In this document: positions 21,541 to 39,901 of the stretch, in pieces | How positions within the stretch are numbered: the stretch's first letter is position 1 | How the letters are laid out: each line of letters starts with the position of its first letter | DNA from: Pelagibius litoralis | GTDB lineage: Bacteria > Pseudomonadota > Alphaproteobacteria > Kiloniellales > DSM-21159 | DNA: 64,000 nt | Reading direction: 5' to 3' | Assembly (NCBI GenBank): GCA_029287455.1 | Contig: JARFRB010000087.1 | Location: forward strand, 1-64,000 | Program-made: the position numbers and the translations under genes | The notes under the pieces: model-generated | Told to the model about the DNA's origin: nothing | What the model saw: only the letters and a program-made list of their open reading frames with translations | Databases searched by the model: none

Positions 21541-22958
21541 CGGCGGTGGCGGCTCGGCGGCAAGACGGCGGCGAGACGCTCGTTCATGGGACCTGCATTG
21601 CCGTGGACACGCCCCGGGGACCGATGGCGATTCTGCTCAAAGGGCCCTCCGGCAGCGGCAAGTCGGACTTGGCTCTTCGCATGATCGACGCTGGCGCGAA
21701 ACTGATCGCCGACGATCAAGTGGTGCTGGAAAGACAGGGCGGATTGCTGCTCGCCGGGGCGCCGGATGCCCTTGCCGGTGCCTTGGAGGTGCGGGGGTTC
21801 GGCATCGCGGAGGTTGCCTCGATCGCGCACGCGCCCTTGGCGCTTGTCGCGCGGCTTGTCCGGGACGCGGAGATCGAGCGCTTGCCCGATGGAGGCTCGC
21901 TCAACCTCCTTGGCATCGAGGTTCCCGTTTTGGACATTGACCCCTTCACATTGTCGGCACCGGCCAAACTGCGCCTTGCGACAAAGGCCCGCTCGGCGGC
22001 TATAGTGCCTCCCGGAAAAGGCGAAGTCCGAGCAGGGGAGCCCGCAATGAAGGAAACCGATGCCGCCGCCCCGCCTGATTCCTCCAGCGCCAAGCCGTTG
22101 CCGGTGGTCTTGGTGACGGGGCTATCGGGGGCGGGCCGTGTCACGGCGCTCAAGGCCTTGGAGGACATTGGCTACGAATCGATCGACAATCTGCCGCTCA
22201 GTCTATTGGACCAGGCAATCTCGCAGGGTCATTTGGACCGGGCGGTGGCGGTCGGCCTGGATATCCGGGGCCGCGACTTCGCGGTGGCCCCTTTGCTTGA
22301 GCAGTTCGACCGCCTTGTCGCGAATCCTTCTTTGGACATCACATTGCTGTTCATCGACTGCGACGACGAGGTTTTGCAGCGGCGCTTCACCGAAACCCGG
22401 CGGCGCCACCCCTTGGCGCAGGAACGGCCGCTGCTCGACGGCATTGCCCACGAGCGCCGCTTGCTTGCCCCTTTGCGCGACCGTTGCACCTTGCTCGCCG
22501 ACACCTCCGAGACCACGGCCGCGGAGTTTCGCCATTTCGTCGCCAACCATCTTGCTCTGGATGATGGGCCGGGGATGGGGGTTTTCGTGACGTCCTTTTC
22601 CTTCCGGCATGGCTTGCCGCGCGAAGCCGATATCGTGCTCGACGTCCGCTTTTTGCGCAATCCGCACTATGAGAAGGAGCTCAGGCCCTTGACCGGCAGG
22701 GACCCGGTCGTTGCCGCCTACGTCGAGGCGGACCCGGCATTTGCGGCTTTTTTTTCTGGTTTGGTGGGGATGCTGGGGCCGCTGCTTCCGCATTATGAGC
22801 GTGAAGGCAAGAGCTATCTGACCATCGCGATCGGCTGCACCGGCGGTAAGCATCGTTCCGTCGCCATCGCCGAGAAGCTGGCGCACTGGTTCGTCGAGCA
22901 AGGCCGCCCGGCACGGCTGACCCATCGGGAAATCGAGGCAGGTCGGACGGGGGGCTGA
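21537..22958 (+). CDS. HPr kinase/phosphorylase fused in frame to RapZ
   Basis: One uninterrupted 473-codon frame. Residues 1 to about 150 are the short alphaproteobacterial HPrK catalytic domain (Walker A G-P-S-G-S-G-K-S at 36-43, then L-I-A-D-D-Q-V). Residues 171-473 are a full-length RapZ (formerly YvcJ/YhbJ): P-loop G-L-S-G-A-G-R-V at 195-202, D-N-L-P, and C-terminal G-C-T-G-G-K-H-R-S. HPrK phosphorylates a serine of HPr; RapZ binds RNA and glucosamine-6-phosphate in enterics, but its alphaproteobacterial role is unclear. The RapZ P-loop has R-V where K-S is usual. ATG 22047 (residue 171) has AGGGGAG seven bases upstream, so RapZ may also be made separately. The fusion start GTG overlaps the chvG stop. 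Confidence 0.88.
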   Translation: MTAVAARRQDGGETLVHGTCIAVDTPRGPMAILLKGPSGSGKSDLALRMIDAGAKLIADDQVVLERQGGLLLAGAPDALAGALEVRGFGIAEVASIAHAPLALVARLVRDAEIERLPDGGSLNLLGIEVPVLDIDPFTLSAPAKLRLATKARSAAIVPPGKGEVRAGEPAMKETDAAAPPDSSSAKPLPVVLVTGLSGAGRVTALKALEDIGYESIDNLPLSLLDQAISQGHLDRAVAVGLDIRGRDFAVAPLLEQFDRLVANPSLDITLLFIDCDDEVLQRRFTETRRRHPLAQERPLLDGIAHERRLLAPLRDRCTLLADTSETTAAEFRHFVANHLALDDGPGMGVFVTSFSFRHGLPREADIVLDVRFLRNPHYEKELRPLTGRDPVVAAYVEADPAFAAFFSGLVGMLGPLLPHYEREGKSYLTIAIGCTGGKHRSVAIAEKLAHWFVEQGRPARLTHREIEAGRTGG

Positions 22959-26175: not shown

Positions 26176-27366
26176 CTACTTGTAGGGGTCTGCTGCGTCG
26201 CGCAGCCCGTCGCCTAGGAAGTTGAAAGCCAAGACCACGATCACCACCGGAACGCCCGGCAGCAAGAGCCAGGGATACAGCGTAATCGCGTTGATGTTCT
26301 GCGCCTCGGTCAGCAACACGCCCCAAGACGTGACGGGCGGCCGCAGGCCGAGCCCCAAGTAAGATAGGGCGGTTTCCGCCAAAATCATGTTGGGGATCGA
26401 AAGCGTCGCCGAGGCGATGAGGTGGCTTGCGAAGCTGGGCAGCAGATGGCGGCCGATGATCCGGGCCGGCGAGGCGCCCATCAACTGGGCGGCGGTGGCG
26501 AAATCCTCCTCTCGCAGGGACAGAAGTTTCGAACGCACGGCGCGCGCCAGTCCCGGCCAGTCCAACAAGGCCAGAATAAATGTGAGCCCGAAGAAGACGC
26601 CGATTGGCGACCAGGTCACCGGCAAGATCGCCGAGAGAGTCATGAAAAGCGGGATCTCCGGGAAGGAGCGCAGGATCTCGATGCTCCGCTGGGTCAGATC
26701 GTCCACCCAGCCGCCGTAGTATCCGGCCAGGCCGCCGATCACGATGCCCAGAATAAAGCTCAAGGAAATCCCGATAAGGCCGATGGTGAGAGAAATCCGC
26801 GCGCCATAGATGATCCGGCTCAGGACATCGCGGCCCAGCCGGTCCGTGCCCATCAGGAAGAGGGTGCCGTCCTTGGCCGGGCAGAAGAGATGGAAGTTGC
26901 CTTCCCACTGCCCCCAGAAACGGTATTCGTCGCCAAGACAGAAGAAGCGGATGCGCTGCGGCTCGCTCTTGTTGGGAACGTAGTTGCGGCTCAAGGTCGT
27001 CAGATCGAGCTTGTAGTCGAAGCCGTAGACGAAGGGCCCGACGAATGCGCCCTCGTGGAAGAAGCGTAAAGCCTGCGGCGGGGCGTAGATGGAGTCCGTG
27101 TTGCGGGTGTGAAGGTTGTAGGGCGCCACGATCTCGGCGATGACCACAAGAAGATAGAAGAAGGCCAGGACCAGGCCCGAAACCACCGCGAGCTTATGGT
27201 GGCGGAACTTCCACCACATGATCGTCCACTGGCCCGCCTGGTAATAGCGCTCCTGCTCGGGGGTTAGGGTGTCCTTGGTGTAGGGATTGAAGGGATCGGG
27301 GTCGACATAGTGCCCCTCACGCGGCGGCGGCGGCAGATTCCGGCGGTCGATCGGCTTGTCGCTCAT
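26176..27366 (-). CDS. Peptide/oligopeptide ABC transporter permease (DppC/YejE type)
   Basis: 396-residue inner-membrane permease. TM1 is at about 58-80, a long loop of roughly 110 residues follows, then M-G-T-D-R-L-G-R-D-V-L-S-R (the DppC-family signature) and five further membrane segments; the EAA loop reads A-A-Q-L-M-G-A-S-P-A-R-I-I. The long N-terminal cytoplasmic stretch and enlarged first loop are reminiscent of YejE-type permeases and longer than plain DppC (about 300). The start overlaps the stop of the partner permease as ATGA. The substrate cannot be inferred because no binding protein is encoded nearby. Confidence 0.85.
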   Translation of the reverse strand: MSDKPIDRRNLPPPPREGHYVDPDPFNPYTKDTLTPEQERYYQAGQWTIMWWKFRHHKLAVVSGLVLAFFYLLVVIAEIVAPYNLHTRNTDSIYAPPQALRFFHEGAFVGPFVYGFDYKLDLTTLSRNYVPNKSEPQRIRFFCLGDEYRFWGQWEGNFHLFCPAKDGTLFLMGTDRLGRDVLSRIIYGARISLTIGLIGISLSFILGIVIGGLAGYYGGWVDDLTQRSIEILRSFPEIPLFMTLSAILPVTWSPIGVFFGLTFILALLDWPGLARAVRSKLLSLREEDFATAAQLMGASPARIIGRHLLPSFASHLIASATLSIPNMILAETALSYLGLGLRPPVTSWGVLLTEAQNINAITLYPWLLLPGVPVVIVVLAFNFLGDGLRDAADPYK

Positions 27367-28361
27367 TTCGTCGCCCCTCCGCCCAGCCGGATCCGGGGGT
27401 CAAGCGCCGCGAGCGCCAGGTCGGACAGAAACACGCCGATCACCACCAGCAGGGCCTGGAACATCAGGAAGGAGCCGGCGAGGTACATGTCCTGACTCTG
27501 CAGGGCCTTCACGAGCATGGAGCCCGTGGTTGAGAGGTCCAGCACCACCGAGACGATGGCGGCGCCGGAGATGACCTGCGGCAGCAAGGAACCGATGTCC
27601 GCGATAAAGGGATTGACCGCCAGGCGCAGGGGATACTTGGCGATCACCTTCCACTCGGCCAAGCCCTTCGCCCGGGCGGTGGTGACGTATTGCTTCTGCA
27701 GCTCGTCGAGCATGTTGGCGCGCAGGCGCCGGATCATCCCCGCCGTGCCCGAGGTGCCGATCACCACCACGGGCACCCAGAGATGCGCCAAGAGGGAGCC
27801 GACCTTCTCCCAGCTCCATGGCTGGTCGATGTATTGCGGGTCGAAGAGGCCGCCGTAGGAGGTCCCGAACCACTTGTTGCCCAGATAAAGCAGGATTAGC
27901 GCCAGCAGGAAGTTGGGCGTGGCCAGGCCTAGAAATCCGATGAAGGTGAAAATGTAGTCGCCGATGGAGTACTGCCTGACGGCCGAATAGATGCCGATGG
28001 GAAAAGCCACCAGATAGGTGAAGATCACCGTGGTGGTGGCCAGCACCACGGTTAGCCAGAGCCGGTCGCCCACCACCTCGGCGACCGGAAGCTGGTACTC
28101 GAAGGAATACCCCATCTCGCCTTGCAGAAGGTCCAAGACCCAGAAGAAATATTGCTCGACGAAGGGCCGGTCGAGGCCGTACTGCTCGCGCAGGAAGGCG
28201 ATCTTGGCCGGATCCACCGCCTCGCCCTGGGCCTGCAGCTCCGCCAGATAGGTTTCCAGATAGTCGCCTGGCGGCAACTGAATGATGAAGAAAATCAGAA
28301 AGCTGATGACCAGCAAGGTCGGGATCATAACGAAGAGCCGGCGCAGGGTGTATGCCAGCAT
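27363..28361 (-). CDS. Peptide ABC transporter permease (DppB/YejB type)
   Basis: 332-residue permease with N-terminal M-L-A-Y-T-L-R-R-L-F-V-M-I-P-T-L (TM1 about 9-30), a periplasmic region containing the family motif R-E-Q-Y-G-L-D-R-P, and five further membrane segments. The EAA motif T-T-A-R-A-K-G-L-A-E-W is near residue 236. It forms a heterodimeric channel with the following gene, with which it shares a four-base overlap. Six bases separate it from the upstream dual ATPase stop, so all three are one operon. Confidence 0.88.
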   Translation of the reverse strand: MLAYTLRRLFVMIPTLLVISFLIFFIIQLPPGDYLETYLAELQAQGEAVDPAKIAFLREQYGLDRPFVEQYFFWVLDLLQGEMGYSFEYQLPVAEVVGDRLWLTVVLATTTVIFTYLVAFPIGIYSAVRQYSIGDYIFTFIGFLGLATPNFLLALILLYLGNKWFGTSYGGLFDPQYIDQPWSWEKVGSLLAHLWVPVVVIGTSGTAGMIRRLRANMLDELQKQYVTTARAKGLAEWKVIAKYPLRLAVNPFIADIGSLLPQVISGAAIVSVVLDLSTTGSMLVKALQSQDMYLAGSFLMFQALLVVIGVFLSDLALAALDPRIRLGGGATK

Positions 28362-28367
28362 TGCCCG

Positions 28368-30272
28368 TTACTCCGCCGACTGCAGGAAGGGTTCGAGGGT
28401 AGCCGTCTCCGGATCGGCCCGCACGAAGTGGCCCGACCCAAGGTCCACCAGGCGCGGATGGGTGTCGCCGCCCAGCGTGAAGGGGGCGGGCCAGGCCTCG
28501 GGCTGGGAGGCCCTGCCGTCCATCAAGGCGGTGAGATCGAGCCGGCGCTCGGGATTGGGCTCCGGCACCGCCGAAACCAGCGCGCGTGTATAGGGGTGCA
28601 CCGGGTTCTTGAAGAGAAGCTCCTTCGGTGCCAGCTCCACCAGCCGGCCGCGGCACATCACGGCAATCCGGTCGGCGATGTAATCCACCACGGCGAGATT
28701 GTGGCTGATGAAGAGATAGGTCAGGCCCAATTCGTCGCGCAGATCCTTCAACAAGTTCAGGATCTGTGCCTGGATGGAAACGTCCAGGGCAGACACCGGC
28801 TCGTCGCAGATCAAGAGATCCGGCATCAAGGCCAGTGCCCTGGCAATGCCGATGCGCTGCCTTTGCCCGCCGGAGAAGGAGTGCGGGTAGCGCTTCAGGT
28901 GGCGCACATCCAGCCCGACCAGACGCATCAGCTCCATCACCCGCTCGGCCCGGCTTTCCGGGGTTCCGATATCGTGGATGAGCAGCGGTTCGCTCAAGAT
29001 CTCGAACACCGTCATGCGCGGGTTCAGGCTGCTGAAGGGATCCTGGAACATGAACTGGATGCGCCGCCGGAACGCGACCAGATCCGAATCCGACAAGGCC
29101 AGGACATCCAGGGGCTCGCCGTGATCGTTGAAGACCACCTCGCCGCTGTCCGGGGTAAGCGCCCGCATCACGATCTTCGACAAGGTGGTCTTACCGCAGC
29201 CGCTCTCGCCCACCAGGCCGACGCATTCCCCGCGGTGGACGCTAAGGCTGACGTCATCCACCGCCAGCACCTTGTCCGAGGGCTCGCGCGAGAACCAGGA
29301 GGATTTGCGGATCGTGAAGGTCTTGGTTATGCCGGTCAGGCGCAGTAACGGCCCCGCCGCGTCACTCCCTGGCGGCCAAGGCTTCTTCTCCTCCATGAGT
29401 TTCGTGTGGCCGTTGTGCTGAATTTCGCGCAGAGGCCTCAGGCGCTCGCCCGGTTTCATGTCGAAGCGCGGAACGGCCCCCAGCAGAGCGGTCAGATAGG
29501 GGTGGCGGGGATCGTGGAAGATGTCGTCCAGCGTGCCGCTTTCCATGACCTCGCCCCGGTACATCACCACCACCTCCTCGGCCACGTTGGCCACCACCCC
29601 CAGATCGTGGGTGATGATCAGGACCGCCATGCCCAGCTCGGCTTGCAGATCCTGAATCAGTTTCAGGATCTGCGCTTGGATGGTGACGTCGAGCGCGGTG
29701 GTCGGCTCGTCGGCGATCAGCAGGGCCGGCCGGCAAATCAGGGCCATGGCAATGACAACGCGCTGGCGCAGGCCGCCGGAGAGTTCGAAGGGATAGGTCT
29801 TGAGCCCCCGCTCCGGGTTGGGGAAGCCCACTAGGCGCAGCATGTCGGCGACGATCTTCTGGCCTTCCGCGCCGGTAATGCCGCGATGCAGAGCCAAGGC
29901 TTCGCCCACCTGATCGCCCACGGTATGCACCGGGGACAAGGACGTCATGGGCTCTTGGAAGACGATGCCGATGCTGCCGCCGCGAATGGCGCGCATCCGC
30001 TCCGACTCCGGATCGAGGGCGGCGATATCGACCTGTTCGTTGTCGCGGTCGGGATCGACGAAGAGAATCCGGCCGGACTCGATGCCAGCGGTGCGCGGCA
30101 GGATCCCCATGACCGACTGGCTGACAACCGACTTCCCCGATCCGGACTCGCCAACCAGCGCAACGGTTCCCCCCGGCGGAACGGAGAAGGAGACGCCCCG
30201 AACCGCATGCAGACGCCCTTCCGGCAAGCGGAAGGCGACGTGAAGATCCTCGACGGTCAGGAGGTCAGCCAA
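28368..30272 (-). CDS. Dual-domain ABC ATPase of a peptide-type importer (YejF-like fusion)
   Basis: 634 residues with two complete ATPase domains. Domain 1 has Walker A G-E-S-G-S-G-K-S at 41-48 and signature L-S-G-G-L-R-Q-R; domain 2 has G-E-S-G-C-G-K-T near residue 360 and signature F-S-G-G-Q-R-Q-R, each with D-E-P Walker B. Both thus look catalytically intact, equal to fused DppD-DppF. The start is TTG at 30272 with a G-rich ribosome site (GGGGGGC) just upstream; no nearby ATG retains the whole first domain. Order is ATPase-permease-permease, the reverse of many operons, and the gene that should encode the periplasmic binding protein is absent from the locus. Confidence 0.9.
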
Positions 30273-30339: not shown

Positions 30340-30897
30340 TCAAGCTCCTTCGCCCGGCACGATCGCCGGGCGCGGCGTATCCTCGTCGGCGTGAATACCC
30401 AGGCCGAGGAGGTTTCCCGCCGTCGTCGGGTCGAGCGCGACACCGTTGCGCCGGGCCGCCTTCGCGGCATGCCAGGCGATGTCCGCGAACCCCTCGATGC
30501 GTGATTCGAACGTCATTTTTCCACCGCTTCCCGTCAACGTCAGTTGCAGGAACCCCCCATCGTTACGCCGCCGTTCCCTGCGCGTGCCAAAGTACCTTAG
30601 CTTCAGCGCGGACAAATCTTCCCAGAGCAAAGCCTTCGTGGCTAGAACCTTTATGAAGAGTCCTTGCCCATTGAGGGCAACCCGCGTGAACTGCTGCCGC
30701 AGTGTGCGGAGCCCAAATATACAGAAAATCAGGACCAGGCTCCCGAAAATTCCCACAATCCACGTCGATCCGCCGCTCGACGCCAGCACGGTGAGCCCCA
30801 AGGCCAATCCCCCGGCCGTTCTCAGGTAGTCGCCGAGCAGGGAGCGGGGCGGGTAGCGATAGAACACGGTATCGGGCTGGGGCCTATCCTCGTTCAT
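30340..30897 (-). CDS. Small membrane protein of unknown function, last gene of the glycosyltransferase operon
   Basis: 185 residues. Two hydrophobic segments (about 24-42 and 46-62) sit near the N-terminus, followed by a soluble part with alternating hydrophobic residues (R-V-A-L-N-G-Q-G-L-F-I, W-E-D-L-S-A-L-K-L-R-Y) that resembles membrane-anchored PH-like domains in layout, though this is impression only. No catalytic motif. Its ATG overlaps the stop of the upstream glycosyltransferase by four bases, so it belongs to that operon. It ends 67 bp before the TTG start of the peptide ABC ATPase. I do not recognise the family. Confidence 0.6.
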   Translation of the reverse strand: MNEDRPQPDTVFYRYPPRSLLGDYLRTAGGLALGLTVLASSGGSTWIVGIFGSLVLIFCIFGLRTLRQQFTRVALNGQGLFIKVLATKALLWEDLSALKLRYFGTRRERRRNDGGFLQLTLTGSGGKMTFESRIEGFADIAWHAAKAARRNGVALDPTTAGNLLGLGIHADEDTPRPAIVPGEGA

Positions 30898-32099
30898 GAA
30901 CCGTGCCTTTCCGCCACGGGCCTGGCCGGCGGCGGGTCCTCGGTGGCCAGACGCGCAATGATCCCCGCCGAAATCCCTGCACCTCTGGTTTCTATTTGAG
31001 GTGGCGCCCGGCGTCCACGCTCTTCCGCGTTCGACAGGGCGCGTGCGAGCCTTTCCGGAGTCAAGTCTGGCTCCTCGACAATCTCCAGCAGGCCACGCGC
31101 CGCCAGCAGCCGGGCGCGATGGAGTTGTTCGCTCTCTTGCCCACCGGAAAAGGGTGCCACCACCGCCGGTGCGCCGCTGCCCAATACCTCCAGCACGGTG
31201 TTGTAGCCGCCCAGGCTGATCGAGGCGCGGCAGCGGGCCAAAAGCGCTTGGAAATCGCGCCGGGACCTTTCGACAACGGTCCTCTCGGGCGCGGCGGCGG
31301 TCAGGTCACTGAATTCGGCTTCCGGCAGATTGGGGCCAGTCAGAATGCGCCATCGCACCTCGGCGCGCCGGTCCAGCCGCCGCGCCGCCAGGGCCACTTT
31401 AAGGAAGGGGCCGCCGAAGGCACCGCCGCCCGCCGAAACGACGACTTCGCCCTCACCCGCATTCCCCTGGCGAAGATCGCCGGCACCACCCTCCGCCGGG
31501 CTCATGGGCGGGTTGGCGATATAGCCGGTATAGGTCAAGAGGCGGCCGGCACGCGCGGCTTGCGCGAAGCTGTCGCGCAGGCGAACGAAGGCCGGGTCGC
31601 CGTGCACCAGCACGAGATCGTAAAAGCGCTCGGCGGTTTCCGCCATCCACAGCGTGCGCTCCGGCGGCTTTTCCACCAAGAGGTCGCGGATGGAGGAGAC
31701 AATCCAGGGGCGGGGCTGGCGGGCACGCGCCGCCGCCAGCAGGGGTTCCAGCTCGAAGCGGAATTTCCGACGGCCGAAAGGGTACATCTCGGTCACCAGT
31801 ACCTTGGGGGCCAGCGCCGCGAGGATCTCCAGCAGGTCGGCGCGGCGCCGCTTTTTCCAGGCCGCGTCGATCGGACGCCCTTCGGCATCAAGGACCGGAT
31901 CGAAGCGGCTGTCGGCCACCCAGGCGGCGGGAAGCTGCACGAGGCGTGCCGAACCCAACTCAAGGCCGGGCACTGTCCGGCCGCCCGACACCACCACGGC
32001 CTTCAGCCCGGCCTCCGCACAAGCCTTCGCCAGCGCCGCCGTGCGGGTGAGGTGCCCGATGCCCCAGAGGTGCTGCACGTGAAAGAGGACGTCTGTCAT
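30894..32099 (-). CDS. MurG-like GT-B glycosyltransferase (second of a paralogous pair)
   Basis: 401 residues without signal peptide or membrane segments. N-terminal G-I-G-H-L-T-R-T-A-A-L-A fits the sugar-acceptor loop of GT28/MurG-like enzymes; the C-terminal half has V-V-V-S-A-G-G-G-A-F-G-G and the donor-binding G-G-Y-N-T-V-L-E-V-L. It aligns throughout with the 35205-36437 product (shared G-x-G-H-L-x-R, Y-T-G-Y, G-G-G, G-G-Y-N-T), so the two are paralogues in one operon. The family looks like the predicted glycosyltransferases of COG4671 (from memory). Donor and acceptor unknown. Four-base overlaps join it to the phosphatase upstream and the membrane protein downstream. Confidence 0.75.
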   Translation of the reverse strand: MTDVLFHVQHLWGIGHLTRTAALAKACAEAGLKAVVVSGGRTVPGLELGSARLVQLPAAWVADSRFDPVLDAEGRPIDAAWKKRRRADLLEILAALAPKVLVTEMYPFGRRKFRFELEPLLAAARARQPRPWIVSSIRDLLVEKPPERTLWMAETAERFYDLVLVHGDPAFVRLRDSFAQAARAGRLLTYTGYIANPPMSPAEGGAGDLRQGNAGEGEVVVSAGGGAFGGPFLKVALAARRLDRRAEVRWRILTGPNLPEAEFSDLTAAAPERTVVERSRRDFQALLARCRASISLGGYNTVLEVLGSGAPAVVAPFSGGQESEQLHRARLLAARGLLEIVEEPDLTPERLARALSNAEERGRRAPPQIETRGAGISAGIIARLATEDPPPARPVAERHGS

Positions 32100-32680
32100 G
32101 GCTCCAAAGGCAGGTTAAGGGCTTCGATCTCCGCAGCTCCGCCAGGATGGATCCGGAAGCGGTGGAAGCAAGCGCTCGCGAGCTTGACCGGGGGTTTCCC
32201 GCGGAGGTCCCAACCGCTCGCATGGCAGTAAAGCGCCCGGATGATGCCGCGATGTGCGACCGCTCCGGCCGGCTCTCCGCTTGCGGCGAGGCGGGCGAGG
32301 AAGGGGCGCAGGCGGTTCAGCGCCTCGCGCGGCGTCTCTCCGCCTGGCGGTCTGAAATCGAGGCCCCGGTCCTCGTTCTCGGCCATCTCGTCGCCGAGGG
32401 CTTCACGCAGCGCGCCCAAGCGGTGCCCCTCCCATTCGCCCCAGTCCATTTCGATCAGCGCCTCATCCGGCGAGGCGTTCAGGCCCAGAAGTGCCGCGGT
32501 CTCGCGCGCGCGGGCGAGGGGAGAGCTGTGCCAGCGCCAGGTGTGCAGCGCGCCGGGCAGGCTCCAGCGGGCCACCGCTCGCCGCCCCGCCGCCGATAGA
32601 GGCCTGTCCGCGCGCCCCTGCAGGCGGCGGTCTTCGTTCCAGTCCGTGGGCCCGTGGCGCAGAATGATGAAGGGGATCAT
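32096..32680 (-). CDS. Histidine phosphatase family protein (phosphoglycerate mutase-like)
   Basis: 194 residues. The R-H-G motif is at residues 8-10 (I-L-R-H-G-P-T-D-W-N-E), followed by the R in S-S-P-L-A-R-A-R-E-T-A, E in M-D-W-G-E-W-E-G and the second His in V-A-H-R-G-I-I-R. These residues complete the catalytic set of the branch that includes CobC/GpmB-like phosphatases. Sitting between two glycosyltransferases with four-base overlaps on both sides, it may remove a phosphate from a sugar or lipid-linked intermediate; that is inference. An alternative is general phosphatase activity on a small metabolite. Confidence 0.8.
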   Translation of the reverse strand: MIPFIILRHGPTDWNEDRRLQGRADRPLSAAGRRAVARWSLPGALHTWRWHSSPLARARETAALLGLNASPDEALIEMDWGEWEGHRLGALREALGDEMAENEDRGLDFRPPGGETPREALNRLRPFLARLAASGEPAGAVAHRGIIRALYCHASGWDLRGKPPVKLASACFHRFRIHPGGAAEIEALNLPLEP

Positions 32681-33807
32681 GCGCCGGGCCTCCCCCGACG
32701 GTGGTCCGCGGCCGCGCCCCTGAGAATGCAGTCGAGCCCCTCGGCCGCCGCCGCGAACCCGTGAGATTGCCGCAGGTAGCGCGCAGCACCTTGGCCCAAG
32801 GCCCGCCGCCGACCGGAGTCTTCCAGAAGCTGCGCGATGGCCGCCGATAAGGCGTCGTCGTCGCGCGGGGCGGTGAGAAGCCCGCTCACACCGTCGGCCA
32901 CCACGGCCGGAACACCGCCTTCCCGCCCCGCGACAACCGGCAGCCCGAGCGCTTGCGCCTCCAGCAAGGCCATGCCGTAGGCTTCGTTGACCGCCGGCCA
33001 GACATAAAGATCACCAGCGGAAAAGAGGCCGTGGAGCGCTTCCGGCGGCAGCGCGCCCAGGAAGCGGACGCGCCCGCTGGGAAGGGCCGCGAAAGCCTCT
33101 TCCACCGCGCTGCGCGCCGGCCCGTCGCCAGCCAGCAGCACGACCCACTCCAAGTCCGCAAGCCGGCCCAGGGCTTCGGCAAGCAAGCGATAGGAGGCGA
33201 GCTTATCGCCCGCGCGCATCATTCCGGCGGCGATGATCCATGGGGCGTTGTCGGGCAAACCGGCCGTGGCACGCCAATGCGCCCGCGCACTCGCGCGGTC
33301 GGGGGAATCCGGGATCTCCACGAAGGGCGGCAGGTCCCTGAGCTTGGCGGAGTCGGGAAGGCAGGCCGCGTTACGGGGGTTGAGCGGGATCACGGCATCG
33401 GCCTGGGCCAAGGCATCGAGCACGGCGCGGTAGCTCATGTCCCAGGGCCCGCCGGCCCGCTTCGGCGCGACGGAGGCTTCGGCCACCACGTAGGGAATGT
33501 CCAGCGTGCGCGCCACCCGAGGGCCGATCCAATCGGGAGCCTTGTAATAGAGGTGATAAGTGAACCAAAGGTCGGGGGGCGGGCTTGCCCCCGCAACGAT
33601 GCGCTCGGCAATGCGGGCTCCCAGCTTTGCGCGGCGCGCTTGCTCGGCCGCATCGCCATCGGGCACCCGCCCGCGCAGGCGGCTGGCCAGGACGACCTCG
33701 TGCCCCGACCGCTCCATCGCGCGCCACAAGAGGCGGGCCATGTTGCGGTCGCCCGAGGGCACCGGATGATCGGGCGCTTTCATTGGCGCGTAGAAAGCGA
33801 CCCGCAT
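32677..33807 (-). CDS. GT4-family glycosyltransferase
   Basis: 376-residue GT-B glycosyltransferase. The N-terminal domain starts M-R-V-A-F-Y-A-P-M-K. The C-terminal donor domain carries G-D-G-P-A-R and the E-x7-E motif in N-E-A-Y-G-M-A-L-L-E-A, followed by G-L-P-V-V-A-G-R-E-G-G-V, typical of retaining GT4 enzymes using NDP-sugars. No membrane segments; peripheral membrane attachment is common in the family. ATG 33807 lies only six bases after the preceding glycosyltransferase stop, and its own stop overlaps the phosphatase gene. Confidence 0.83.
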   Translation of the reverse strand: MRVAFYAPMKAPDHPVPSGDRNMARLLWRAMERSGHEVVLASRLRGRVPDGDAAEQARRAKLGARIAERIVAGASPPPDLWFTYHLYYKAPDWIGPRVARTLDIPYVVAEASVAPKRAGGPWDMSYRAVLDALAQADAVIPLNPRNAACLPDSAKLRDLPPFVEIPDSPDRASARAHWRATAGLPDNAPWIIAAGMMRAGDKLASYRLLAEALGRLADLEWVVLLAGDGPARSAVEEAFAALPSGRVRFLGALPPEALHGLFSAGDLYVWPAVNEAYGMALLEAQALGLPVVAGREGGVPAVVADGVSGLLTAPRDDDALSAAIAQLLEDSGRRRALGQGAARYLRQSHGFAAAAEGLDCILRGAAADHRRGRPGA

Positions 33808-33813
33808 CGACAG

Positions 33814-35148
33814 CTATCCCGCGACCGCCCGGCCACTTGACGGCCGAACACTTGACGCCCCGCTCTCTTCAGTGTCGCCCTCTTCAACTCGGTCGGAGAG
33901 CGGCACAGCGGGGCGGAGCCCGTCGCGGTTCAAGCCGAAGCAGCCGAAGACGACCCCCATTCCGGCCTGCATGGAGAAATCCGCGCGCACCCGGGCGTTG
34001 CCCGCCGCACCCAAGCGTTGGCGCAGCGCGGGGTCCTTGATCAGGCGCGTCAGGCCCTTGGCGAGTTCGGCGGGTGCGGACGGTGGCGCCATGCATCCCG
34101 TCTCCCCCTCGATCAGCAGTTCGGGGATCGCCGAAACCCGGGTGGAGAGGCAGGCCAGCCCTTGGCTTTGGGCCTCCATCAATACGTTGGGAAGACCGTC
34201 CCGGTCGCCGTCGCCGGCAACCAAGCTGGCCAGCACGAAAAGGTCGCCGTCGCGGTAGGCCTGCAAGACCCTGTCATGTGGCTGCGCGCCAAGCCAGTCG
34301 ATCCGGTCCGCCAAGCCCAGCTCCCCGGCCAGGTGCTTTAGCTTGCGCGACAGGGCGCCGCCGCCGACGTGGGTGAAGCGCCAGGCGGTGTCTTCCGGCA
34401 AGAGGGCGAGCGCGCGCAGCAGGTCTTCGTAACCCTTCTTTGGCACCGCCCGGCCGACCGAGAGGATCCGGACCGGATCCCGCGCGTCCGATCCGTCGCG
34501 CGAAGGACGCGCGGGCGGCGCGGGAAAACGCTCGAAATCCAAGCCGTGATAAGCCAGGCGCACTTTTTCCGGATCCGCGCTCAAATCGCGGAGATGCTCA
34601 TAGCCCAGCTTCGTGCAGGTCACCAGCCAGTCGAGCTCGGCGAGCTTCTCCCGCTTCTCCCAGTCCGGCGTGGTCCAGATATCGCGGGCGTGGGCGGAAA
34701 CGCTCCAAGGCAGCCCTGTCATCAGGGCGGTGTAGCGGGCCACCGAGGCCGGCGTGTGCAGGAAATGCGCATAGAGGCGATCGACGTCCCGGGGAATTTC
34801 CGCGGCCAGGACACAGGCCTGGCCAAAGCGGCGGATCCGATTGGGTGTCAGGTCGCGGCGCAGGTCGGCCAGGAAAGCTTTCAGCGCCCTCTGGTATCCG
34901 GACAAGCCGCGTGCCCGGCGCCAGCCCGCGAAAACGCGCGCGGGTTCGCGCCACAGATATTCGGGCAGATAGGCCACGGGGGCCTGGATCTCCCGATGCA
35001 CCGGGTGCACCGCGCGGTCGGTTGGGTGGCGCAGGCTGACAAGCCGCAGATCCAGCCCCGCGCGCTCAAGCGCCAGGAGCTCCTGGGCGATGAAGGTTTC
35101 GGAAAGGCGAGGGTAGCCCTTCAAGAGGACGGCGACGGTCTGCGGCAT
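33814..35148 (-). CDS. GT4-family glycosyltransferase (WcaL-like exopolysaccharide type)
   Basis: 444 residues. The N-terminus V-A-V-L-L-K-G-Y-P-R-L-S-E-T-F-I matches the start of WcaL/AmsK-like polysaccharide glycosyltransferases; S-V-S-A-H-A-R-D-I-W is the acceptor-side motif. The donor site includes V-G-R-A-V-P-K-K-G-Y and E-x7-E-like G-L-P-N-V-L-M-E-A-Q-S-Q-G. The ATG at 35148 is used because homologue-like sequence starts there; an open extension to 35268 overlaps the neighbouring gene. The last 50 residues are extra, serine- and acid-rich and probably disordered. It is 56 bp after the first glycosyltransferase of the operon. Confidence 0.83.
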   Translation of the reverse strand: MPQTVAVLLKGYPRLSETFIAQELLALERAGLDLRLVSLRHPTDRAVHPVHREIQAPVAYLPEYLWREPARVFAGWRRARGLSGYQRALKAFLADLRRDLTPNRIRRFGQACVLAAEIPRDVDRLYAHFLHTPASVARYTALMTGLPWSVSAHARDIWTTPDWEKREKLAELDWLVTCTKLGYEHLRDLSADPEKVRLAYHGLDFERFPAPPARPSRDGSDARDPVRILSVGRAVPKKGYEDLLRALALLPEDTAWRFTHVGGGALSRKLKHLAGELGLADRIDWLGAQPHDRVLQAYRDGDLFVLASLVAGDGDRDGLPNVLMEAQSQGLACLSTRVSAIPELLIEGETGCMAPPSAPAELAKGLTRLIKDPALRQRLGAAGNARVRADFSMQAGMGVVFGCFGLNRDGLRPAVPLSDRVEEGDTEESGASSVRPSSGRAVAG

Positions 35149-35204
35149 GGTGGCATCGACTATAACAGGGCTAGGGCATTTTGCGCGGGGTACCCGGGCA
35201 AGGG

Positions 35205-36437
35205 CTACCAACGGCGCGCTTTGGCTTCGGTCAGGGGTAGCGCGCGCCGGCCGCGTTGGGCCAGCCACTGGCCAGTCAGCTTGACCATGTTCTCCCGGCC
35301 ATCCAAAAGGCCCGGCACCACGCTTTCCGACGGGCGGGGTTGCTGGCGAATGGTCTTGAGCGCCGTCGCCATGGCACGGGCATCGCGCTGCCCATCGTCG
35401 GGCAGCATGCGCAAGAGCCCAAGCTCCTGGGCGCGCGTCGCGCGGATAGCCTGTTCAAGGCGCGGCACGGTTCTGGGCACCATGATGCAGCGCTTATCGA
35501 AGGACAGGACTTCGCAGAAGGTGTTGTATCCGCCCATGCAAACCACACCCAAGGCGCGGGCCATCAGGCTTTCCACATGGGCGTTGAACGTGATCGCCTC
35601 GACTCGATCCAAGAGGTTCACCCGGCGCTGGAAGTCGGACTGCAGTTCGCTACCCATGAAGGGGCCGAGGACGATCAGCGCCGGATAGGGAATGGAAGGA
35701 TCCTCCTCATAGGCGCGCAGGACCCAATCGACGATGGCCTCGCCGTCGCCGCCGCCACCAACGGTCACCAAGATGAAGGGATCGCTGATCTTGTCGAAGT
35801 CAAGGTGCTGGGGATGGGGCGCGGAGAGGCGCCGCAAATAGCCGGTGTAGGTCAGGCGCTGGCGCACGGAAGCGGGCAGCTCGATCCCCTCCAAGGGTTC
35901 GCAGATCTGCGGCAAGCCGTAGATCCAAATATCGTCGTAGAGGCGCGGGATGGCGGGCAGGACATGCTTGCGTTCCCACTCGCTGGCCAGCATGTCGGGA
36001 TCGTCCATCACGTCACGCAGCCCGAGCACGCAAGGCGTGCCCCGCGCGCGCAACAGTTCCAGGGTTGCCTTGACCTCGCCGCGCAGGCCCAGGGGCTCCT
36101 TATCGACGATGAAGAGATCGGGATCGAAAATGTCGGCCGTGTGTTGAATGATCGACTCCCGCATGGCCAGCGTCTTTTCGATATCGATCGGCAGCTTCAG
36201 GGAGACGTAGTCGCCATCGCGCAGCTTGATCACGCCGGGGATGCGCACGAAGTCCACGCGGGCGTGAAAGTCGAAGCTTCCGATGATAGGCGAGCCCGAA
36301 AGAATCAAGACCGAGAGATCCGGGTCGGATTCCACCAAGGCGTGGGCGATCTCCCGGCAGCGCCTGAGATGGCCCAGGCCGAAGCTGTCATGGCTGTAGA
36401 TGAGGATCCGCGCCCCCAGCGGGTTTCCGTCCATCAT
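35205..36437 (-). CDS. MurG-like GT-B glycosyltransferase (first gene of the operon)
   Basis: 410 residues. G-L-G-H-L-R-R-C-R-E-I-A-H-A-L near the N-terminus and C-M-G-G-Y-N-T-F-C-E-V-L in the donor domain define a GT28-like enzyme paralogous to the 30894-32099 product. L-V-T-V-G-G-G-G-D-G starts the second Rossmann domain. Tandem ATGs at 36437 and 36434 follow AAGGGA at a good distance; a GTG at 36452 gives a less likely longer form. The gene is divergent from the ABC-exporter-like gene, with a 259-bp shared upstream region, suggesting joint control. Substrate unknown; polysaccharide or glycolipid assembly is inferred from the company it keeps. Confidence 0.77.
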   Translation of the reverse strand: MMDGNPLGARILIYSHDSFGLGHLRRCREIAHALVESDPDLSVLILSGSPIIGSFDFHARVDFVRIPGVIKLRDGDYVSLKLPIDIEKTLAMRESIIQHTADIFDPDLFIVDKEPLGLRGEVKATLELLRARGTPCVLGLRDVMDDPDMLASEWERKHVLPAIPRLYDDIWIYGLPQICEPLEGIELPASVRQRLTYTGYLRRLSAPHPQHLDFDKISDPFILVTVGGGGDGEAIVDWVLRAYEEDPSIPYPALIVLGPFMGSELQSDFQRRVNLLDRVEAITFNAHVESLMARALGVVCMGGYNTFCEVLSFDKRCIMVPRTVPRLEQAIRATRAQELGLLRMLPDDGQRDARAMATALKTIRQQPRPSESVVPGLLDGRENMVKLTGQWLAQRGRRALPLTEAKARRW

Positions 36438-36696
36438 CGTCGGTCCCTTCACTTCCCAGCGGGTCGCGCCAGCCCAGCATGCCCCCTTTCGCGCCGCCCG
36501 GACTATGCCACAGCTCGCCGTCGATGCGAAGTCTCGGATGGCTGGCCGCGCGGAAGCTTGCCCGTTTTCGCTTGGTCGTTATCTTGCGCGAGGTTAAGGT
36601 TCGCCACGTGGTGGCAATCGCATGCTCAATCCAGAGGCTCGCGGATCCGATCGCGAACCCTTGAAGGCCGCCGGAAAGTAGGACCGCGGCACGGGA
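36438..36696. promoter_or_regulatory. Shared promoter region between the glycosyltransferase operon and the ABC/cNMP genes
   Basis: 259 bp between two divergent starts. It contains a dyad GCCAC-GTG-GTGGC at 36603-36615 including the palindrome CACGTG. No -10/-35 pair good enough to name was found on either strand. This is the place to look for a common regulator of both transcription units. Confidence 0.4.
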
Positions 36697-39411
36697 ATGG
36701 AACCGAACCTTCTCAGGTACATTTGGCGGAACAGCAGAGCCGAGCAGATCCGGATTCTGTTCCTCGTCATCGTGTCGCTGCCTTTCTATTACATCTCCTT
36801 GAATCTGCCCAAGGACATCGTGAACCGCGGCATCCAGGGCCGCGGTTTCGACGGCCCGATGGACACCGAGACTTTCGGCGCGATCCCGGTTCCCTTCTCC
36901 GAGCGGATCTTTGGGGAATCGCGCATGCTTTTCGAGGGGTTTTCCCTGGAGCAGTGGCAGCTGCTGATGGCGCTCAGTTTGACCTTCCTTGGGCTGGTCT
37001 GCGTCAACGGGCTTTTCAAGCTGGTCGTGAACACCGCCAAAGGGCGTTTGGGCGAGCGCATGTTGCGGCGCCTGCGCTACGAGCTCGCCGATCATCTCCT
37101 GCGCTTCCGGCAATCGCAATTGAAGCGCATGAAAAGCGCCGAGGTGGCCACCATGGTGAAGGACGAGGTGGAGCCGCTGGGCGGGTTCATCGGCGACGCC
37201 TTCGTCACGCCGGTCTTTCTGGGCGGACAGGCGATGACGGCGATGGCCTTTATTCTGGTCCAGTCCCTACCGCTCGGCCTGGTCGCGCTGGCCATTCTCG
37301 TCGTCCAGGCCGTCCTGATCCCGAAGCTTCGGGTCAAGCTCTTGCTGCTTGGCAAGGAGCGGCAGTTGACCGCGCGCCAGCTCGCCGGCCGGATCAGCGA
37401 GATGATGGACGGCAGCGTCGAGGTCCACACCAACGACACGTCTAATTTCGAGCGCGCGGAGCTGACTTCGCGCCTGGGCAAGATCTTTGAAATCCGCTTC
37501 GAGATCTACAAGCGCAAGTTCGCCATCAAGTTCCTGAATAACTTCCTCTCTCAGGTCACGCCCTTCGTGTTCTACGCCGGCGGTGGCTTGCTCGCGATCT
37601 ACGGCTACATGGATATCGGCGCCCTTGTTGCGGTGATCGCCGCCTACAAGGATTTGCCGGGCCCGGTGCGCGACTTGATCAATTGGGAACAACAGCGCCA
37701 GGACGTGCGCATCAAATACGAACAGGTGATCGAGCAGTTTCAGTCGACCGATATCATGGAGCCCGCGCTTCAGGACCCCGATGTTCCGGTGGCGCCTCTG
37801 GAGGGCAACATATCGGCGAACTCTCTGGTCTACACGGACGAGAACGGCGACCGCCTGGTCGATGGTGTGAGCTTCGAGTTTCCGCTGGACAGTCATGTGG
37901 CTTTGGTGGGCGACGCCAGCAGCGGCAAGGATCAAGTGGCGCTGATGCTGGTCGGCCTGGTCGCGCCCACCGCCGGCCACCTGGCGATCGGTGGAAAGGA
38001 TCTTACCCGCCTGCCCGAATCGGCCCTTGGGCGCCGCATGGGCTACGCCGGCCCGGATGCCTATCTGTTTCCCCAGTCGGTGCGTGAGAACCTTGTCTAC
38101 GGTTTGCGCCACCGCCCGATCGATGAGCCCGTTTATCCGGAGTCCGAAGCGGCCGTTCACAAGTGGCGCGCGGACGAAGCCGCCCGGTCCGGGAACTGCC
38201 TTCTTGATGTCAACGCCGAATGGGTCGACCGCATATCGGCCGGCGCGCAGGATGAAGAGAGCCTCGACCGTTCACTTATCCAAGCCGTGTCGGTTGTCGA
38301 CATGGAAGAGGATATCTACCGCTTCGGTCTCAATGGCTCCATCGACCCCGAGCAGCGGCCTGGCGTGGCGCAGGATCTGTTGCGGGCGCGCGTGGCCCTG
38401 ACCGAGCGCTTGCGCGAGGTGGGGGCGGATTCCTTCGTCGTTCGCTTCGACGCCGACAAATACAATCCCAATGCGACCATGGCCGAGAACTTGCTGTTCG
38501 GAACGCCCAAGTCCGCGGACTTCGACGTAGATGCCATGGCCGACAACCCCATCGTCCTGCGTGCGCTTGATGAGGCGGAGTTGATGGATGATCTGGTGCA
38601 GAAGGGCTTCACCATCGCGCAAACGATGGTCGAGCTGTTTGCCGACCTGCCGCCCGGCCATCCCTTCTTCGAACAGTTCAGCTTCATCGACGCCGATGAC
38701 CTACCGGAGTTTCGCCAGTTGATCCAGCGGGCCGAGGCGCGCGGTGTCGCGGGGCTGGGCGACGACGATCGCCGCCGCTTGCTGCGGCTGCCCTTCCGCT
38801 ATATCGAGGCACGCCACCGCCTAGACTTGATCGACGAAACCTTGGAGCGCGAAGTGGTGACCGCGCGCAAGCTGATCGCGGCCGCGGTGGAGCGCGAGTG
38901 CCCGGACGCCGTCGAGTTCTTTGATCCGGCGTCCTACAACGCCGCCGCGTCGATGATGGACAATATTCTTTTTGGCCGCTTGGTGTTCGGGCAAGCCGAG
39001 GCGCAGGAGACAGTGGGCCGGGCCGTCACCGAAGTGCTGCGCGAGATGGATCTCAGAGAGGCGGTCTGCCGGGTCGGCCTTGACTTCCAAGTGGGCGTCG
39101 GCGGCAAGCGCTTGAACGCGACCCAACGCCAGAAGCTGGCCATCGCGCGCGCCCTGATCAAGCGGCCCGACGTGCTTGTCATCAACGAGGCCACGGCGGT
39201 GATGGACGGCGCGACCCGCGCGCGCTTGATTCACACGGTGCTAGGGTACCGGGAGGGTGCGGGCGTGGTGTGGGTGCTTGAGCGCGCGGCCATGGCCGAC
39301 CGCTTCGATGACGTGATCGTGCTGCGTCAGGGCCGTTTGATGGAGCGCGGTAAGTACGACGATCTCGCGCGCGATGGGACCACGTTGCCGCAGCTGGTTG
39401 ATGCGGATTGA
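36697..39411 (+). CDS. Atypical ABC-exporter-like protein with degenerate, expanded nucleotide-binding domain
   Basis: 904 residues. Residues 1-330 look like an ABC exporter membrane domain (segments about 18-36, 88-110, 165-207, 283-318). The ATPase domain (about 370-890) is unusual. Walker A is G-D-A-S-S-G-K-D (405-412), with Asp for Ser/Thr; the Q-loop Gln is absent (Y-A-G-P-D-A-Y-L-F); the signature is L-N-A-T-Q-R-Q (806-812); Walker B ends I-N-E-A, with Asn830 for Asp; the H-loop His is Glu862 (V-L-E-R). About 290 extra residues separate Q-loop and signature, and the E-N-L-x-x-G element occurs three times (around 465, 598 and 756). ATP hydrolysis is doubtful. It is followed after 49 bp by a cNMP-binding protein and is divergent from the glycosyltransferase operon. 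Exported substrate unknown. Confidence 0.75.
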   Translation: MEPNLLRYIWRNSRAEQIRILFLVIVSLPFYYISLNLPKDIVNRGIQGRGFDGPMDTETFGAIPVPFSERIFGESRMLFEGFSLEQWQLLMALSLTFLGLVCVNGLFKLVVNTAKGRLGERMLRRLRYELADHLLRFRQSQLKRMKSAEVATMVKDEVEPLGGFIGDAFVTPVFLGGQAMTAMAFILVQSLPLGLVALAILVVQAVLIPKLRVKLLLLGKERQLTARQLAGRISEMMDGSVEVHTNDTSNFERAELTSRLGKIFEIRFEIYKRKFAIKFLNNFLSQVTPFVFYAGGGLLAIYGYMDIGALVAVIAAYKDLPGPVRDLINWEQQRQDVRIKYEQVIEQFQSTDIMEPALQDPDVPVAPLEGNISANSLVYTDENGDRLVDGVSFEFPLDSHVALVGDASSGKDQVALMLVGLVAPTAGHLAIGGKDLTRLPESALGRRMGYAGPDAYLFPQSVRENLVYGLRHRPIDEPVYPESEAAVHKWRADEAARSGNCLLDVNAEWVDRISAGAQDEESLDRSLIQAVSVVDMEEDIYRFGLNGSIDPEQRPGVAQDLLRARVALTERLREVGADSFVVRFDADKYNPNATMAENLLFGTPKSADFDVDAMADNPIVLRALDEAELMDDLVQKGFTIAQTMVELFADLPPGHPFFEQFSFIDADDLPEFRQLIQRAEARGVAGLGDDDRRRLLRLPFRYIEARHRLDLIDETLEREVVTARKLIAAAVERECPDAVEFFDPASYNAAASMMDNILFGRLVFGQAEAQETVGRAVTEVLREMDLREAVCRVGLDFQVGVGGKRLNATQRQKLAIARALIKRPDVLVINEATAVMDGATRARLIHTVLGYREGAGVVWVLERAAMADRFDDVIVLRQGRLMERGKYDDLARDGTTLPQLVDAD

Positions 39412-39460
39412 ACGGAAGGCGGAAGCGTTCGGGTGGGATCAGGACGATCGGGAGTGTGAC

Positions 39461-39901
39461 ATGGGACTGGAACAAGAAGTTGCTATTCTAAAAAAGATTC
39501 CGCTCTTCGCGCGGATCGACCCCACGAAGCTGAAGCTCATGGCCTTCGCCAGCGAGCGGATGATCTTCAAGCCTGGCCAAGCCGTTTGCAGGCAAGGCGA
39601 CGTCGGAGACTCCGCTTTCATCATTATCGACGGCGAGGCCGACATCCTGATTGAGAGCGATGGCGGCCCCATCAAGGTCGCGAGCGTGGGGCGCAACGAT
39701 ATTATCGGCGAGATCGCCATTCTTTTGGATGTGCCCCGTACGGCGACGGTGCAGGCGACCTCCGACCTTCAGACCCTGAAAATCACCAAGGATCTTTTCT
39801 TCCGGATGGTCACCGACTTTCCGGAGATGGGTGTTGAGATCATGCGGGTCCTGGCGCATCGCCTGGACGCCACCAACGCTCAGCTTCGCGCCGCGCGTTA
39901 G
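39461..39901 (+). CDS. Stand-alone cyclic-nucleotide-binding domain protein
   Basis: 146 residues formed almost entirely by one cNMP-binding domain. The phosphate-binding cassette reads I-I-G-E-I-A-I-L-L-D-V-P-R-T-A-T-V, with the Glu and Arg that contact cyclic nucleotide ribose and phosphate, so ligand binding is plausible. There is no helix-turn-helix, unlike CRP/FNR regulators, and no membrane segment. ATG 39461 follows GGGAG at seven bases; the frame open to 39374 overlaps the ABC gene. Coming 49 bp after the ABC-like gene on the same strand, it probably acts on that protein. Binding of cAMP versus cGMP cannot be told. Confidence 0.85.
   Translation: MGLEQEVAILKKIPLFARIDPTKLKLMAFASERMIFKPGQAVCRQGDVGDSAFIIIDGEADILIESDGGPIKVASVGRNDIIGEIAILLDVPRTATVQATSDLQTLKITKDLFFRMVTDFPEMGVEIMRVLAHRLDATNAQLRAAR

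Follow-up and report, generated by a model that had tools for sequence, protein, structure and literature searches.

Our results point to CN, a small protein encoded in a 64-kb stretch of DNA (hereafter the window), as the probable cyclic-nucleotide-sensing subunit of the product of the gene next to it, ABC, a presumed pseudo-ATPase lying in an envelope-glycan locus (Table 1). Sequence comparison of the two families revealed a dedicated gene pair, its fusion into one protein, an ATPase that has decayed while the sensor cassette stayed intact, a neighbourhood of glycosyltransferase and Opp-type importer genes, and linkage to cyclase genes at some loci. The association of such a sensor with a worn-out ATPase suggests a membrane gate that a signalling molecule, in place of ATP, may operate.

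Table 1. Features of the ABC-CN locus, given as positions in the window
Feature	Position	Strand	Basis
Opp-type permease 2	26176..27366	-	domain match
Opp-type permease 1	27363..28361	-	domain match
Opp/Gsi-type importer double ATPase	28368..30272	-	domain match
GTC, glycosyltransferase, GT28 C-terminal domain	30894..32099	-	domain match
GTB, GT4 glycosyltransferase	32677..33807	-	Pfam, neighbourhood comparison
GTA, GT4 glycosyltransferase	33814..35268	-	Pfam/NCBIfam, neighbourhood comparison
GT28-type glycosyltransferase, divergent from ABC	35205..36452	-	Pfam, neighbourhood comparison
ABC, type IV exporter-fold protein with degenerate ATPase, 904 aa	36697..39411	+	Pfam, alignment, structure model
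ABC degenerate Walker A, GDASSGKD, residues 405-412	37909..37932	+	alignment
ABC NBD insertion, ~300 aa, about residues 471-770	38107..39006	+	sequence, model, fold alignment
ABC degenerate signature LNATQ 806-810, Walker B/Glu N830 E831, H-loop position E862	39112..39282	+	alignment
ABC-CN spacer, 49 bp, contains GGGAG	39412..39460	+	sequence reading
CN, stand-alone cyclic-nucleotide-binding protein, 146 aa	39461..39901	+	ORF, Pfam, AlphaFold2 model, Foldseek
CN phosphate-binding cassette, residues 82-98, IGEIAILLDVPRTATVQ	39704..39754	+	translation, alignment of 56 CN rows

CN is a stand-alone CNBD protein with an intact cassette

PF00027 (cNMP_binding) is the sole Pfam match of CN (E 1.4e-18, 67 bits versus a cut-off of 27.5, residues 36-117) and the single one in 56/56 aligned CN rows. 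This alignment (A6) holds P0001 and 55 loci of an 80-locus set, which represents the best 80 of 492 relatives and is thus skewed towards the window's type. G83, E84 and R93 are present in the cassette of CN (IGEIAILLDVPRTATV), and its key positions are conserved among the 56 proteins: Gly83 in 56/56, Glu84 in 53/56 (Asp in the other three), Arg93 in 56/56, Thr94 in 55/56 and Ala95 in 56/56. In a broader set of 24 proteins, fused members among them, Arg is found in 24/24 and Glu in 22/24, the Thr and Ala following Arg are variable, and part of the fused members have a weaker cassette. The AlphaFold2 model (pLDDT 89.9, pTM 0.80) displays two N-terminal helices, a beta roll, a cassette helix (84-88) and a long C-helix (121-145), and its Foldseek matches are the CNBDs of CRP, PKA, PKG and CNG/HCN proteins. 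The HTH expected of a CRP/FNR regulator was found in CN neither by Pfam nor in the model; both the protein and its model end with the C-helix. The earlier note, made from the sequence of the window, was therefore right to describe a 146-residue stand-alone cNMP domain with the cassette Glu and Arg and no HTH. It had also located CN 49 bp after the ABC-like gene, which agrees with the ABC stop codon at 39409-39411 and the CN ATG at 39461. No promoter-like or terminator-like site was seen on the + strand between the two genes. A longer alternative ORF opens at 39374, but since M1 is invariant in the eight nearest rows, CN is unlikely to begin there.

In the 385 genomes searched from the window's class, CN matches at 131 places in 128 genomes, and the gene is no chance ORF, as most carriers have exactly one. 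It is scarcely credible that CN is a decayed, functionless regulator of the CRP family, as its missing HTH might suggest: the cassette has been kept, most carriers hold one orthologue, and the distances between CN proteins follow those between their ABC neighbours (Mantel r 0.84; see below). Besides CN, the window encodes a second CNBD (PF00027; 53564-53812, +) without the cassette Glu and Arg in the translated stretch, and this domain may consequently belong to an FNR-type regulator.

ABC combines an exporter fold with decayed ATP sites

The only Pfam matches of ABC are PF00664 (37.7 bits versus a cut-off of 28) and PF00005, and its structure model (pLDDT 86.3, pTM 0.80) retrieves type IV exporters. 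The ATPase domain of ComA aligns over its full length with the model (239/239 residues over ABC 366-902, Z 30.8, rmsd 1.8); in this model, the NBD fold is complete despite an insertion of ~300 residues. Within or next to this insertion, a short motif seems to be repeated (NLVYG / NPNATMAENLLFG / NAAASMMDNILFG, residues about 455-470, 590-603 and 748-761), which looks as if part of a helical subdomain had been multiplied.

In spite of this fold, the residues that a functional type IV exporter carries in Walker A, Walker B, the signature and the H-loop are largely missing from the ABC family. In an alignment of 57 rows (A5: the window and 56 loci of the 80-locus set), the Walker A Lys (position 411) is Lys in 29/57, the following Ser/Thr is kept in 5/57 and replaced by Glu or Asp in 47/57, Asp remains at the Walker B position in 7/57 and Glu at the next one (position 831) in 24/57, while the second signature Gly and the H-loop His are found in 5/57 and 8/57, respectively. 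In contrast, all six positions are intact in 30/30 canonical exporters used as control (an exporter of the same genome and its orthologues in other genomes of the class), whose ORFs were chosen by a motif pattern already requiring the Walker A Lys and a signature Gly; the control comprises the 30 best-matching loci (73/115 genomes matched), each of which yielded such an ORF, none being dropped. Conservation of the two halves of the protein is inverted as well in these sequences: the mean pairwise identity is 0.585 for the TMD versus 0.43 for the NBD in the ABC family, and 0.605 versus 0.692 in the canonical orthologues. This argument is based on the orthologue control, a comparison with five paralogues being weaker. 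Two fused proteins from a single genome (L088 and L089; fusions are described below) no longer match PF00005, although PF00027 is still matched. ABC is thus best read as a pseudo-ATPase with an exporter membrane fold. The 'ABC-like' label given initially to the neighbour holds for the fold but had missed the decay of the ATP sites, which makes the system more unusual than previously thought.

These data also bear on a rival explanation, in which ABC would still be an ATP-binding or slowly ATP-hydrolysing exporter that CN and a cyclic nucleotide merely tune. The complete NBD fold is in line with it, and some members have kept both GxxGxGK and the Glu after Walker B, so that ATP binding may persist in part of the family, given Lys411 in 29 and Glu831 in 24 of the 57 rows. 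A precedent exists in HetC of Nostoc PCC 7120, a peptidase-containing ABC exporter with an N-terminal CNBD in which CNBD, peptidase and ATPase are all essential, and whose CNBD may exert such tuning (PMC10986499). Nevertheless, we consider this explanation unlikely in view of the loss of the Walker A Ser/Thr, the Walker B Asp, the His and the second signature Gly, and of the inverted NBD/TMD conservation. Moreover, since the Walker and signature motifs are both degenerate, pairing with a normal half-transporter would presumably not restore an intact site. As a side observation, a 576-aa ABC-exporter-like ORF (L089, 276-2006, +) adjoins the second fused copy of genome G164 and could be a canonical partner.

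The pair is conserved and, in one clade, fused

The co-occurrence of both families, which the earlier note had proposed as a check, revealed a conserved gene pair. In the window's family, CN lies directly downstream of ABC in 8/8 ABC carriers (12 genomes searched). Among the 385 genomes of the class (thresholds: E<=1e-150 for ABC, E<=1e-30 for CN), ABC is present in 127 and CN in 128, with both in 120 versus 42.2 expected if they were independent. The two genes are adjacent in 113 genomes, on one contig and the same strand with CN downstream, and 111 of these have <=187 bp between the matches.

Exceptions are few, and part of them proved to be linked genes below the thresholds. Seven genomes have ABC only (G033, G164, G227, G340, G118, G264 and G376), the first five of which were looked into: the first four carry a divergent CNBD fused to ABC, verified by Pfam in G164 and G227, and G118 has ABC without CN. 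Eight have CN only (G276, G134, G385, G184, G280, G292, G036 and G301), the first six of which were looked into: G276 contains a fusion, ABC is cut at a contig end in G134, and CN occurs without ABC in G184, G280 and G292. As for G385, a remnant of ~52 C-terminal residues of ABC lies upstream of an intact CN (locus L099, 3665-3820), and an ORF of the same locus (4-822) looks by eye like a transposase.

In the 80-locus set, CN is located directly 3' of ABC in 80/80 cases with a median gap of 42 bp. These loci belong to Rhizobium, Mesorhizobium, Phyllobacterium, Brucella daejeonensis, Agrobacterium vitis, Azospirillum, Reyranella and Kiloniella, and also include a few MAGs labelled betaproteobacterial. 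In a sample of the whole phylum, ABC was detected in 27/398 genomes, all 27 within the window's class. Over these 80 loci, the distances between ABC proteins go together with those between CN proteins (Mantel r 0.843, 0/999 permutations as high), a value that includes shared ancestry. Annotated records give both genes generic names only. By all these measures of gene content and order, ABC and CN form a strongly conserved, dedicated pair.

The association goes further at 11 loci from 10 genomes and five families, where a single ORF of 1024-1103 aa encodes ABC with CN as its C-terminal part. PF00664 and PF00027 were both present in 8/8 fused proteins scanned, two of which come from strains other than those 10 genomes: WP_012978118.1 of Azospirillum sp. 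B510 and WP_223118636.1 of Ruegeria sp. SCSIO 43209. In a tree of 44 rows, 13 fused rows fall on one side of a single branch (support 99/99), which argues for one fusion or split event kept since then and rules out repeated independent fusion. The conserved pair and its fusion throughout a clade thus lend genomic support to the partnership with the ABC-like protein that had been put forward from the window alone. Two genomes with a fused ABC-CN elsewhere also carry a second, unlinked stand-alone CN (G220:C3:124840-125271 and G310:C1:582954-583385), which scores closer to the window type.

Glycan and Opp neighbourhood

Gene sets similar to that of the window surround the pair in R. etli CFN 42 and CIAT 652, R. 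leguminosarum, Phyllobacterium zundukense and S. meliloti GR4. In the 80-locus set, in which many flanks are short, the GT28 gene was found at 61/80 loci, GTA at 57/80, GTC at 53/80 and the Opp ATPase at 45/80. This retention in most loci could mean that CN acts on a glycosyltransferase or on the Opp importer and stands beside ABC by operon order only. Such an assignment appears very improbable, since CN still directly follows ABC where the glycosyltransferase and Opp genes sit elsewhere or in another order, and since CN is fused to ABC and never to a glycosyltransferase in the fusions found. The Opp-type operon of the window (26176-30272, -) is without a gene for a solute-binding protein, whereas the Rhizobium clusters have one between ATPase and permease; the R. 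etli protein had no match in the window at 1e-20.

Cyclase linkage and the nature of the ligand

A class III cyclase gene is found within the R. etli, R. leguminosarum and S. meliloti clusters. In Agrobacterium vitis, in Brucella daejeonensis and at the fused loci of G050 and G388, a cyclase gene immediately precedes ABC in the same orientation. Using a cyclase profile, we detected such a gene no more than 5 kb from the pair at 14/104 loci versus 2.6 expected, an expectation based on 337 PF00211 places in 26 genomes of about 117 Mb in all (rounded sizes, summed by hand). Over the whole flanks of the 80-locus set, there are 25 cyclase matches in 1.18 Mb (16/80 loci), against 2 in 400 kb of random control stretches (1/20). 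Since the loci are not independent, this enrichment is support rather than proof. With a cyclase at 16 of 80 loci, universal linkage is ruled out; in the window's genome, none of the 17 cyclase-domain places is on the window's contig, and a search inside the 64-kb window found no cyclase. In two of the genomes with CN but no ABC (G184 and G280), a PF00211 cyclase is situated ~3 kb from the CN homologue (L095, 6718-7164, -; L097, 6190-6627, +). These homologues have an SBP_bac_5 protein (L095) or an M48 peptidase (L097) nearby, and such CN proteins may serve another partner.

Taken with the intact cassette, this linkage points to cAMP or cGMP as the ligand of CN. A Thr following the cassette Arg is a feature of PKG domains that prefer cGMP, and its presence in CN would predict cGMP to be bound no less well than cAMP. 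By analogy with HetC, however, a CNBD need not bind a cyclic nucleotide: the HetC domain binds ppGpp with a Kd of 59 uM and does not bind cAMP (PMC10986499). CN could likewise be a sensor subunit of ABC for another ligand, such as ppGpp, a different nucleotide or a metabolite, and the unlinked cyclases of some lineages would fit with this. We regard a ligand of that kind as quite improbable, because the cassette Glu, Arg, Thr and Ala hardly vary, a pattern shared with domains of the PKA/PKG type, because cyclase genes are over-represented near the pair, and because CN stays close to a cyclase in the two ABC-less genomes mentioned above.

Proposed mechanism

From the features of the pair and its neighbourhood, we infer ligand binding, physical contact, gating, transport and a type of substrate. 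The cAMP or cGMP would come from class III cyclases and be bound by CN through Glu84 and Arg93, whereupon the C-helix of CN would move. The fused architecture places CN next to the C-terminus of the NBD, and the separate subunit may dock near the same end, where it would open or lock the membrane part of ABC. The decay of the ATP sites suggests that the state of this part is set by the sensor and not by ATP. Gating of ABC could then control the passage of a glycan- or lipid-type product of the neighbouring glycosyltransferases, whose presence suggests a glycan or lipid-linked compound. In its complete form, this proposal amounts to a cyclic-nucleotide-gated channel or flippase of ABC fold: a lineage of exporters would have dropped ATP as its driver, and the binding of cAMP or cGMP by a dedicated CNBD, fused in one clade, would instead act as its switch, the substrate being a glycan or lipid of the envelope of alphaproteobacteria. 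We put forward this complete form as a tentative possibility, which is more speculative than the role of CN as a sensor subunit. If true, control by ATP would have given way to control by a second messenger in an ABC exporter, and the many class III cyclases of alphaproteobacteria would gain a non-transcriptional output. The occurrence of the pair in rhizobia that serve as models (Sinorhizobium meliloti GR4, Rhizobium etli CFN 42, R. leguminosarum) makes these ideas testable at once.

Relation to known systems

HetC is the closest described precedent and qualifies the statement that the combination could not be recognised from described transporters. This statement overlooked that HetC already joins an ABC exporter to an N-terminal CNBD that is needed for function, but it holds in other respects, as HetC keeps its ATPase, has a peptidase and binds ppGpp (PMC10986499). 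In the ABC-CN system, by contrast, the sensor is encoded separately or fused C-terminally, a peptidase is absent and the ATPase motifs have decayed. ABC does not group with HetC-type PCATs: Pfam detects neither CNBD nor peptidase in it, the CNBD of fused members is C-terminal, and the catalytic Glu831 is limited to the 24/57 rows cited above. Among open-licence PMC papers, no literature on the ABC-CN gene pair was found, HetC alone being relevant, and a search on the gene names 'redA' and 'redB' of the R. etli CIAT 652 cluster gave nothing relevant. Papers on R. leguminosarum locus tags close to the cluster bear on pRL110043, a mere candidate for the MFS gene beside the pair, and no phenotype is claimed from them.

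On the membrane side, ABC shares TMD and NBD folds with MsbA-like type IV exporters, and MsbA gives its best NCBIfam score (168.8 bits). Unlike them, it is far below the 602-bit MsbA cut-off, has lost ATP-site residues and carries the ~300-aa NBD insertion. SUR2 is also among its fold matches. SUR subunits of KATP channels and CFTR are degenerate or channel-forming ABC proteins that keep ATP binding; they resemble ABC in joining an exporter fold to non-standard ATP sites and differ by having no known CNBD partner. CNG/HCN/SthK channels and PKA/PKG regulatory domains share the CNBD fold and cassette with CN, and in the fused clade the CNBD is likewise C-terminal to the membrane part. That part, however, has an ABC exporter fold without a cation-channel pore: it matches ABC_membrane and exporter folds, and a voltage-sensor or pore channel domain is absent from these matches.

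As regards soluble proteins, S. meliloti Clr is a cAMP/cGMP-binding regulator of the CRP type with an HTH (PMC10127613). TIGR03896, a bacteriocin-type transport-associated CNBD protein, resembles CN in being a soluble CNBD protein tied to export genes; unlike its members, CN scores 39 bits versus a cut-off of 161.05, and bacteriocin-type export genes were found in none of the annotated neighbourhoods examined. Like CN, PDB 5d1i from Brucella abortus is a stand-alone CNBD of an alphaproteobacterium. It was rejected as an orthologue, with 29% identity to CN in the fold alignment versus 71% between the CN proteins of Brucella daejeonensis and R. etli.

Finally, the window holds a 473-aa ORF (21537-22958, +) in which an HPr-kinase C-terminal domain is followed by the N- and C-terminal domains of RapZ. 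As HPr-kinase and RapZ functions are usually found in separate genes, this ORF is a putative fusion.
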